In this document: positions 38,684 through 48,009 of the stretch, one piece after another
How the letters are laid out: each line of letters starts with the position of its first letter
How positions within the stretch are numbered: the first letter of the stretch is position 1
Virus record (IMG/VR): IMGVR_UViG_3300015245_000045
Coordinates: 1-50,222 of that record
DNA: 50,222 bases
DNA from: a virus
Reading direction: 5' to 3' (one strand)
The notes under the pieces: model-generated
Database searches by the model: none
What the model was told of the DNA's origin: nothing
Seen by the model: the letters and a program-made list of their open reading frames with translations, nothing else
Program-made: the position numbers and the translations under genes

Positions 38684-39060
38684 TCGCCGCTCCCGAAGTC
38701 CTCGTCGCCCGCGTCGATGGACTCGGCCAGCATGCGGCAGTGGTCGGCCACCGCGTTGAGGTCGGCCTTCGTCTCGCTGGCCGGGCGCGAGCGGTCGCCG
38801 AAGAACTGCTGCACCGCGTTCATGAGGTCGTCGTAGGTCATGGTCGGTCCTTTCGTTGTTGCGTCGTACTCGGCCAGCACGCGCCGGCCTTCATCGGTCA
38901 AGAACTCGTGCGGCGAAGGCGGGTCGTGCGACCAGTCCGTCCACCCGAGGTGGTAGCAGTCGAAGCCGGTGCGCCCATGCGGGCGCCGCGACGGCCCGGC
39001 GGCCAGCGTGCGCAGCCACCTCACGCGCGACGGGGTGAGCGTTGGCGTGAGGTGCCTCAT
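38680..39060 (-). CDS. hypothetical protein, winged-helix-like N-terminus
   Basis: A 126-residue protein. LTPSRVRWLRTLAAGPSRRP, CYHLGWTDWSH and HEFLTDEGRRVLAEYD look like a small winged-helix phage domain (LTxxxxxxLxxL ... GW ... LTxxGrxxL). The C-terminal helical part begins near MTYDDLMNAVQQFF, which could be an internal start. ATG 39060 overlaps the upstream stop by one base (TGATG). Confidence 0.65.
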   Translation of the reverse strand: MRHLTPTLTPSRVRWLRTLAAGPSRRPHGRTGFDCYHLGWTDWSHDPPSPHEFLTDEGRRVLAEYDATTKGPTMTYDDLMNAVQQFFGDRSRPASETKADLNAVADHCRMLAESIDAGDEDFGSGE

Positions 39061-39512
39061 CACACAGCCCGCAGCAGGCGTTGCTCGTCGCCCTGCGCGG
39101 CGACGACCCTGTTGGCGCGCTTGGCCCGTGCTTGGCGCGGCTCGGGCAGCACGAGCGGCTCGACCACCTTGGCGCGCTTCTTCTCCCACTCGTCGATGCT
39201 GGCCTGCGTGATCCGCTGCTGGCCGAGCATGACGGTCACCGCCGGGGTCTCGTTGCGCTTGCGGGCGCGGTTGAAGCGCGTCCGGCTGAAGCCGTACATG
39301 AGGCACCACTCGGTGATGGTGTACGCGCGCCGGCCCGGGCCCGCAGAGGGCGCCAGCAGCGCGTCGATGGCGGCTTGGTCGTCGGGGGCATACCCGGCGG
39401 CCAGCAGCATCCCGCGCGCGTCCTCTTCAGCGGCACGGCGTGCGTGGGTCTTTTTGTCAGCGCGCGCTTGGCGTGCGACCAGAGCAGCGTGTGGGTCGTC
39501 TTCGTCGGCCAT
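39060..39512 (-). CDS. HTH DNA-binding protein
   Basis: A 150-residue protein. The central segment YTITEWCLMYGFSRTRFNRA, then ITQASIDEWEKKRAK, is an excisionase/MerR-like winged helix. Flanking parts are basic and Ala-rich. It may regulate the leftward operon or act in recombination. It is the second such protein in this operon (see 36615). Confidence 0.7.
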   Translation of the reverse strand: MADEDDPHAALVARQARADKKTHARRAAEEDARGMLLAAGYAPDDQAAIDALLAPSAGPGRRAYTITEWCLMYGFSRTRFNRARKRNETPAVTVMLGQQRITQASIDEWEKKRAKVVEPLVLPEPRQARAKRANRVVAAQGDEQRLLRAV

Positions 39513-46072: not shown

Positions 46073-46551
46073 GGCGCGGTCGCAAGCGCATCGCGCAGAC
46101 CGAGCAGGTGATGTGCATGCTGCGCGAGGAGTACGACGCCTGCCGCAAGGTCAGCGAGATCGAGATCAAGCCGACGCTGCTGGCCGAGCGTGTGCAGAAG
46201 CGTATCGACAAGAAGGGGCGCTCACCGACGTTGACGGCGTGGATGGCCGTGCTGCAGTTGCGCAAGCTGGCGAGCGAACTGACGCGCCCGGGCGACAAGA
46301 GCGAGGACTCCACTCCGACCCACACGCTCTTCGAACTGCAACGCTACTACCCGGCGGTGCGCCAAGGCGAAGAGATCCGCGTGCTGCGTGAGCATTTGAC
46401 GGTGCCCGAGCGTCGTCAATGTGCGATGGCGTTGCGACGCGAGTCAGCAAGCAAGGCAGCCCATGCCGATGCGCTGGACGCGGAAACCGATGCTCTCATT
46501 CGCGCCGGCATCCTGCGCGAGGACGGCGAAGACCAATCGGAGGCAGCATGA
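46069..46551 (+). CDS. hypothetical protein of the replication operon
   Basis: A 160-residue mostly helical, charged protein starting MRRGRKRIAQTEQVMCMLRE. ATG 46069 overlaps the previous stop, and its stop overlaps the initiator-like gene start. LREHLTVPERRQCAMALRRE is near the C-terminal third. Placement suggests a replication accessory function. No family recognised. Confidence 0.68.
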   Translation: MRRGRKRIAQTEQVMCMLREEYDACRKVSEIEIKPTLLAERVQKRIDKKGRSPTLTAWMAVLQLRKLASELTRPGDKSEDSTPTHTLFELQRYYPAVRQGEEIRVLREHLTVPERRQCAMALRRESASKAAHADALDAETDALIRAGILREDGEDQSEAA

Positions 46552-47474
46552 CCAGCGACGACCGCAAGCTCGAAGGCTGGATGCCGCTGCTGGTCGAGAA
46601 GTACAAGCGCGACACCGAGCACCTCACCACCGAGCAGCACGGCGCCTACTTCCTGCTCCTGATGGCCGGCTGGCAGCGCGAGGGCCTGCTGCCCGACAAC
46701 GACGGCCAACTGGCGGCCATCGCCCACCTCACCCCGAGCCGCTGGCGCGCGCACCGCAGCGTCCTGCGGCCCTTCTTCAGCCCGGACGGCGCCGGCAACC
46801 TCGTCCAGAAACGTCTGCTGATCGAAGTCGAGCGCGCCAAAAAGCTGTCGGTGGTGCGCTCCGAAGCCGGCCGATTGCGAAGCAAACCACCAGCAATTGC
46901 TCCAGCAAATGCTCAACCAATTGCTACAGCAATTGCCCCACCTAATGCCCTACCAATAGCTCCAGCAAATGCACCAGCAATTGGTGGTGCTATAGCTGAG
47001 CAATTGGGGGACTACAGGGGGTCCCCGATCCCGACTTCGTCGGTCTCGGATGACCCCACACACCCTACACAAGAGAAAGAAGCTCGCGCTTCTTCCTCTT
47101 CGCGCGCGACGCCTGCGGGCGAGGCTTGCAAGGCGATGAAGGCAGCGGGGATCGCCGAGGTCAACCCGTCGAACCCGAGCCTGCTGACGATGCTGGAGCA
47201 GGGCGCCACCACGCAGGAGTTCCACTTCGCGGCCGTGAAAGCTGTGCAGGCCAACAAGGGCTTTGCCTACGCGCTCGCCATCGTGAAGGGCGCCCGGGAA
47301 GACGCCTCGCGCGTCGCGCTGGCGCCGCTGCCCAACGGGCCGGCCCTCACCGGCAGCGCGCGCTTCCTGATGGCACCGGGCACGCCGCGCGTGCTGCCCG
47401 ATGACCTGCCCGACCTCGACCTCGACGATGAACCGGAGGGCCAGCATGTCGATGCTTCTCAAGCACGCGGTTGA
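46548..47474 (+). CDS. DUF1376-type replication protein with repeat linker (O-like)
   Basis: A 308-residue protein. Residues about 10-75 (LLVEKYKRDTEHLTTEQHGA, YFLLLMAGWQREGLLPDNDG) are a DUF1376 domain, a winged-helix-like domain found in phage replication proteins. Residues about 114-153 are four-residue repeats of PAIA/PANA/PPNA type, encoded by tandem 12-bp DNA repeats. A C-terminal domain (about 185-300) carries LTMLEQGATTQEFHFAAVKA. By analogy with lambda O, the repeat DNA may be the origin bound by the protein itself. Confidence 0.75.
   Translation: MTSDDRKLEGWMPLLVEKYKRDTEHLTTEQHGAYFLLLMAGWQREGLLPDNDGQLAAIAHLTPSRWRAHRSVLRPFFSPDGAGNLVQKRLLIEVERAKKLSVVRSEAGRLRSKPPAIAPANAQPIATAIAPPNALPIAPANAPAIGGAIAEQLGDYRGSPIPTSSVSDDPTHPTQEKEARASSSSRATPAGEACKAMKAAGIAEVNPSNPSLLTMLEQGATTQEFHFAAVKAVQANKGFAYALAIVKGAREDASRVALAPLPNGPALTGSARFLMAPGTPRVLPDDLPDLDLDDEPEGQHVDASQARG
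46891..47006 (+). repeat. in-gene tandem 12-bp iterons, candidate replication origin
   Basis: Eight consecutive 12-bp units run from 46891 to 46986: cagcaattgctc, cagcaaatgctc, aaccaattgcta, cagcaattgccc, cacctaatgccc, taccaatagctc, cagcaaatgcac, cagcaattggtg. Degenerate units follow. The palindrome caattg occurs five times (46894, 46918, 46930, 46978, 47001). The tract is clearly AT-richer than the surrounding gene. Iteron and AT-rich structure within an initiator gene is the lambda ori pattern; the function is inferred. Confidence 0.65.
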
Positions 47475-48009
47475 CAACGCGTTCGACCGCCTCACCAAGA
47501 CCTACGGGCGCGAGTTCACCTCGAAGTGGGAAGGGCAGGAGACTGGCGACGTGAAGGAGCAGTGGGTGCGCGACCTCATGAGCCTGCCGCACGGGCTCGA
47601 CCAGATCGCGTGGGCGCTGCGCAACCTGCCCGAGAAGGCGCCCAACGGCGCCGCCTTTCGCCTCCTGTGCTTGCGCGCGCCATCGCCGCAGCAGGTCGCC
47701 ATGATCGAGTCGAAGGAGCCCGTGCGCGGCCCCAACGACGACGAGCGCGAGGCACACCGGGCGCTGCGCCAAGCCAGCACGGGCGCGCGCCATCCGTCCC
47801 GGCAGTGGGCCTTCGACCTGCTGGACCGCTACGAGCGCGGCGACCGCGCCATGTCCAGCGGTGCGTTGCGCATGGCGTGCGAAGTGGCCGGCGTTGTTCC
47901 ACGGGAAACCGAAAGCGGCCCGGCCAGCGCCATTACGGGCATGCGCGCCAGCGCGATCTTCGTGGACGAGTTCGATCCGTTCTACGACGAAGAGGCGCCG
48001 CGATGCTGA
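47446..48009 (+). CDS. putative replication protein (lambda P-like candidate)
   Basis: A 187-residue protein. ATG 47446 has GGAGG about 6 nt upstream and overlaps the end of the O-like gene by 29 nt. AVDNAFDRLTKTYGREFTSK, then EQWVRDLMSLPHGLDQIAWA and FRLLCLRAPSP, give a W...L...I..AL...P...FR.LC pattern. This recalls the N-terminal part of lambda P-type helicase loaders. Its place directly after an O-like gene supports that; sequence evidence is weak. Acidic C-terminus (VDEFDPFYDEEAP). Confidence 0.6.
   Translation: MSMLLKHAVDNAFDRLTKTYGREFTSKWEGQETGDVKEQWVRDLMSLPHGLDQIAWALRNLPEKAPNGAAFRLLCLRAPSPQQVAMIESKEPVRGPNDDEREAHRALRQASTGARHPSRQWAFDLLDRYERGDRAMSSGALRMACEVAGVVPRETESGPASAITGMRASAIFVDEFDPFYDEEAPRC

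Follow-up and report, generated by a model that had tools for sequence, protein, structure and literature searches.

Phage lambda carries its replication origin (39034–39160) inside gene O, where four 18-bp iterons are joined to a 38-bp AT-rich tract (PMC3349717, PMC7466680). RepA_N plasmids, pSK41 for example, also have the origin inside rep, and there the N-terminal domain of the initiator binds Rep boxes that encode the interdomain linker (PMC5703833). Within O the iterons occupy gene nucleotides 348–432 and are followed by an A-rich tract and then by an inverted repeat, ATTCGTCAGA-GAAT-TCTGGCGAAT, which was read by eye.

The window considered here is an IMG/VR virus record of 50,222 bases, in which a preliminary description had noticed 12-bp repeats in a gene for a DUF1376-type protein and proposed an origin by analogy with gene O. 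The repeats are very probably the iteron part of a phage replication origin situated inside the initiator gene, and on comparative and analogical grounds the most likely arrangement is an intragenic origin of the lambda type, carried by an initiator family so far without annotation.

The gene, its protein and its neighbour

The gene (46548–47474, + strand) encodes 308 amino acids and is proposed to be an O-like replication initiator. Its product belongs to DUF1376 (Pfam PF07120, E 3e-15; 56.8 bits against a gathering cut-off of 30.1) and matches the PHROG annotation 'primosomal protein' (E 1.4e-17). The Pfam search gave DUF1376 only, with no match to Phage_rep_O (PF04492) or to RepA_N, and an hhalign comparison with lambda O was colinear without being significant (E 0.019, probability 2.5%). 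The N-terminal domain (46578–46826, + strand; Pfam match at amino acids 11–93), the putative iteron binder, is modelled confidently by AlphaFold2 as a winged helix (pLDDT 87.9). Foldseek with this domain returned winged-helix proteins at weak scores (TM reaching about 0.47, every E at 0.001 or above), with MarR-type regulators as the top matches and a plasmid initiator (PDB 4pta) among the weak ones; no sequence relatives of the domain were found in the PDB.

The conserved C-terminal helical domain (47118–47330, + strand; GEACKAMKAAG...) is common to initiators with other N-terminal domains, and a fold search with it gave no useful PDB match. It is without a Pfam or PHROG assignment, and several different N-terminal domains are attached to it in Burkholderiales-type phages (L006–L012). 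Genome contigs scanned with the window protein yielded relatives of the C-terminal domain only. In eight phages that share this domain, several of them lacking a Pfam DUF1376 match, the linker likewise contains repeats or palindromes, mostly with a short-period tract next and often with a stem-loop (e.g. L007, L010 and L012). DUF1376 itself was found in 19 of 300 sampled Burkholderiales genomes (about 6%) and in many phages.

The DUF1376 gene is overlapped by a downstream gene for 187 amino acids (47446–48009, + strand) whose product weakly resembles the helicase loader P, both against lambda P itself (hhalign E 0.0014, probability 18%) and against a PHROG P-like loader (E 0.03–0.18). By tblastn this gene is kept beside DUF1376 and C-domain relatives (L094, L049, L007, L011, L009, L087 and L053), and the next gene in other DUF1376 phages is annotated as DnaC-like or as a replicative helicase (DnaB).

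The iteron array in the window and its relatives

Eight 12-bp units with the core AGCAAWTGCT form the array of the window (46892–46985, + strand), which lies in the linker between the winged-helix domain and the conserved C-terminal domain. Scoring against AGCAANTGCT places the unit starts at 46892, 46904, 46916, 46928, 46940, 46952, 46964 and 46976, in exact 12-bp steps, and adds two degenerate iterons 11 bp apart (starts 46988 and 46999; 46988–47008, + strand), while TRF reports a 12-bp array at 46890–46983 with 7.8 copies and 71% matches. CAATTG occurs seven times in the 50,222 bp, which is not above chance (6.4 expected); the unusual part is the clustering, with 5/7 sites inside the tract. 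The eight tandem units and five palindromes given in the preliminary description are thus recovered, as are its AT-richer tract (48% GC against 67% for the window, a value as low in only 180 of 50,106 overlapping 116-bp windows) and its placing of the repeat between two domains of a DUF1376-type protein, with which the Pfam match, the domain positions and the conservation of the C-terminal domain agree.

Third codon positions are GC in a proportion of 0.125 in the tract and 0.847 in the remainder of the gene. When the window gene was resampled 20,000 times with its protein kept and codons weighted by phage codon usage, core-like sites numbered 0.45 on average and 4 at most, against the 8 observed, a count that no resampling reached. 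Given this result and the codon bias, the peptide does not explain the window repeat. Many relatives have a more regular array than the window, whose unit words were set against those of distant relatives only (about 50% identity in the domain).

Relatives were gathered in two sets, a discovery set of 80 DUF1376 loci found in viral contigs by a repeat-blind protein pattern, with a few annotated phages also collected, and a validation set taken from bacterial genomes by the Pfam model alone. The window, L017 and L028 are discovery members first noticed through their repeats, a bias from which the validation set is free. Removal of redundancy left 66 discovery and 41 validation genes (107 in all). 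The controls, picked mechanically, were the remaining ORFs of 360 nt or more at the same loci; because some of these may be non-genes, protein-preserving codon shuffles served as a second control.

Among the 107 genes the linker holds up to three DNA elements in the order iterons, G-poor short-period tract, stem-loop. Exact 8-mer pairs peak at lags of 11 and 12 (also 22–24) in both sets, far above the ORFs and the synonymous shuffles. In the 66 non-redundant discovery genes and 240 ORFs the counts were 21 versus 6 at lag 11 (p 6e-11), 32 versus 12 at lag 12 (p 1e-15) and 37 versus 9 at lag 6 (p 3e-21); the Pfam-picked set (41 genes, 78 ORFs) gave 11 versus 3, 14 versus 5 and 13 versus 3 at the same lags and 12 versus 1 at lag 7. 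With genes of at least 600 nt, at least one element was present in 87/95 DUF1376 genes and 14/136 control ORFs, and at least two in 53/95 and 0/136, whereas protein-preserving shuffles retained means of 32 genes with at least one element and 5 with at least two. Comparison across the family thus shows selection acting on the linker at the level of DNA, and three elements that recur in order.

In relatives the iterons lie at about gene nucleotides 340–450, and their word varies by lineage while the layout stays constant (AGCAATGCT, AGCAAATGCT, GGCAAATGGCAT, AACGNNCGTT, GGTAAACCTATA, CGCAATGCG); two relatives, L047 and L126, have AACGNNCGTT and GGTAAACC. The words GCAAATGC, GCAATTGC and AGCAATGC are present in 47, 13 and 45 copies in 88.7 kb of DUF1376 genes and in 5, 4 and 6 copies in 206 kb of control. 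Copies of the core words fall, overall, in all three reading frames, and since an 11-bp step rotates the frame, successive copies encode different residues and the array does not amount to a repeat in the protein. The PAIA/PANA repeat of the window protein is absent from relatives, in which an array at the DNA level persists in the corresponding position, with other words and frames. This favours the suggestion that DNA function has shaped the linker, and it is not the pattern that would have told against it, a protein repeat kept while the DNA changes freely. In L028 the array is inserted inside the DUF1376 domain itself.

Genes that use the same iteron word have more similar N-terminal domains (identity 0.52 versus 0.33), a difference reached in 0/2000 permutations. 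A domain that reads the word should produce such an association, and common descent alone would give it too. A second pair of the same lineage-specific iterons, mostly 11 bp apart, is seen within the coding sequence of the DUF1376 domain at gene nucleotides of about 180–230 (L078:2686–2715, also L079, L093, L111, L121 and L047).

The exact triple-core pattern matched 32 times in viral contigs. About 26 of these matches come from one marine phage group, in which the array is intergenic, and were judged unrelated; one other is an Ala/Asn repeat protein. The marine array (L019:5928–5958 and about 25 fragments, L014–L043) consists of AGCAAATGCTN units, after which come GATAAG repeats and a stretch rich in AT, and in L019 it stands between structural genes, away from DUF1376 genes, with the look of an origin or promoter. 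In an unrelated phage gene (L044:804–960) a tandem 12-bp repeat of similar DNA words encodes, in frame, an Asn-Ala-Gly-Ala protein repeat.

The short-period tract and the stem-loop

The iterons of relatives are followed by a tandem tract with a period of 6, less often 5 or 7 (TCACCT, CAGAAC, GTCACA, AACCAAT, AGAAG), which is present in 56/95 DUF1376 genes and whose coding strand contains 42% C, 34% A, 15% T and 9% G, compared with roughly 28, 25, 18 and 28% in the background. The window has ACCCCACACACCCTACACAAG (47053–47073, + strand; TRF 47053–47071), a C/A-rich tract with a 9-bp period and with G on the coding strand at its last base only. Position and composition suggest that it may be a weaker counterpart of the 5–7 bp tracts. 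In one relative (L140, gene nucleotides 450–680) the tract is expanded to 230 bp of CCCARN-type hexamers, against the usual 20–40 bp.

Next in the window is a stem-loop (47071–47100, − strand) with a perfect 7-bp core at 47077–47094, AAGAAGC-TCGC-GCTTCTT, whose loop reads TCGC on the + strand and GCGA on the − strand. The − strand folds into a 13-bp stem, at −10.6 kcal/mol (z −3.3) compared with −8.3 (z −2.2) on the + strand. Relatives have a perfect stem of 7–11 bp just 3' of the tract, lineage-specific in sequence, with a loop that is most often TNNC, TAAA or TNC and usually closed by C-G. The TNNC and TNC loops correspond, on the − strand, to GNNA and GNA, a class of very stable DNA hairpins (PMC4686876), and TAAA falls outside that class. 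Restricted-loop hairpins with stems of at least 7 bp number 28 in DUF1376 linkers and 0 in the 206 kb of control ORFs, while the mirror-image classes (GNNA, TTTA, GNA) number 1 and 3; 26 genes have such a hairpin, compared with a mean of 0.6 after codon shuffling. The peptides encoded by the stem-loop vary (EARAS, EPDGS, STNVE, VTNVT), and therefore base pairing, rather than the peptide, is conserved. Wobble pairs (15 versus 14) favour neither strand, and an Rfam search gave no match. The stem-loop is a candidate origin element that could act as DNA or as RNA.

Among 32 stem-loops, that of the window included, 31 have the first T of the loop at a third codon position, despite the varied peptide. 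Common descent or avoidance of stop codons may, at least in part, have kept the frame constant.

A proposed origin, its rivals and its known counterparts

It might be supposed that the repeat is a low-complexity PAxA linker of the protein, grown by slippage and without a function in the DNA, as a 12-bp unit that is in frame and encodes four residues would allow. This explanation is largely refuted and now very improbable, given the gap in GC3 (0.125 versus 0.85), the frame-rotating 11-bp spacing and missing peptide repeat of relatives, and the loss of most of the signal in synonymous shuffles. An operator for transcription control, by autoregulation or roadblock and with no origin involved, would also suit a winged-helix protein whose own gene carries the sites and whose top fold matches are MarR-type regulators. 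The sites are mid-gene rather than at a promoter, the G-poor tract and then the stem-loop follow them in order, and true origins occupy this place in lambda O and pSK41 Rep, all of which makes an operator improbable.

A variant rather than an opposite of the origin reading keeps the iterons alone as the origin and treats the tract and stem-loop as mRNA elements of translation, decay or termination. The near-constant frame of the stem-loop (31/32) and its single orientation are as expected of a transcribed element, and the wobble pairs favour neither strand. The coupled position directly after iterons and tract, the inverted repeat that lambda has in the corresponding position, the empty Rfam search and the predominance of GNNA/GNA loops on the − strand (PMC4686876) weigh against this variant, which is judged somewhat unlikely.

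The iteron-origin interpretation, which the preliminary description had also put forward as likely, is favoured by the comparative evidence across relatives. The check by cumulative GC skew gave it no support, the minimum of the window being at 33.5 kb and not near 46.9 kb. In the proposed mechanism the DUF1376 winged-helix domain would bind the 11–12 bp iterons, which come roughly once in each helical turn, and the bound protein would assemble into an O-some-like array, whose formation may open the adjoining G-poor tract. The C-terminal domain and the P-like downstream protein would, judging from position and weak homology, recruit DnaB; least certain of all, the stem-loop might, as a single strand, mark the spot for loading or priming. 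Codon choice, frame rotation and the absence of the peptide repeat from relatives show that the amino acids of the linker are for the most part a side effect of the DNA proposed as the origin.

A more specific proposal is possible, if tentative: that DUF1376 is a large phage initiator family with one-turn iterons of 11–12 bp, that the lineage word is read by the winged helix, and that a C(GNNA)G or C(GNA)G DNA hairpin on the template strand marks the site of helicase or primase placement, in a three-part origin distinct in its parts from that of lambda. On the general reading as an intragenic origin, a domain of unknown function gains a proposed function, and the origins of many little-studied phages become predictable from sequence. 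Lineage iteron words, paired with the N-terminal domains that should read them, form a natural data set on protein–DNA specificity, the restricted-loop stem-loop is a testable candidate origin element, and the linker exemplifies coding sequence written mainly for DNA, in which elements stay and the encoded peptide changes.

The Rac prophage protein YdaU and the DnaC/DnaB-linked DUF1376 proteins ('primosomal protein I') share the Pfam family and the replication neighbourhood, and ydaU has a hexamer tract at nucleotides 434–450, as in the family, with only a weak repeat at the iteron lag. In the open-licence papers found, no intragenic origin is described for these proteins, and a literature search for DUF1376 as an initiator or with an intragenic origin gave papers that mention the name once each; an earlier description elsewhere is possible. 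RepA_N plasmids such as pSK41 resemble the DUF1376 phages in having boxes within the initiator gene that encode the linker, and 4pta is among the weak fold matches; they differ as Firmicutes plasmids with another C-terminal domain and other repeats, and a sequence relationship was not found.

Lambda is matched in more than the iterons that suggested the analogy. Both systems have linker iterons at about nucleotides 350–430, a G-poor tract, an inverted repeat or stem-loop and then a P or weakly P-like gene. As a positive control, 11 Phage_rep_O matches from genomes were put through the same repeat search and yielded, in the corresponding position, G-poor tracts and iterons mostly of 19–24 bp. 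Unlike lambda, the DUF1376 phages have the DUF1376 domain in place of Phage_rep_O and a different C-terminal domain, iterons spaced at 11–12 bp rather than about 18–24 bp, a C/A-rich tract with a 5–7 bp period, and a hairpin with a restricted loop.
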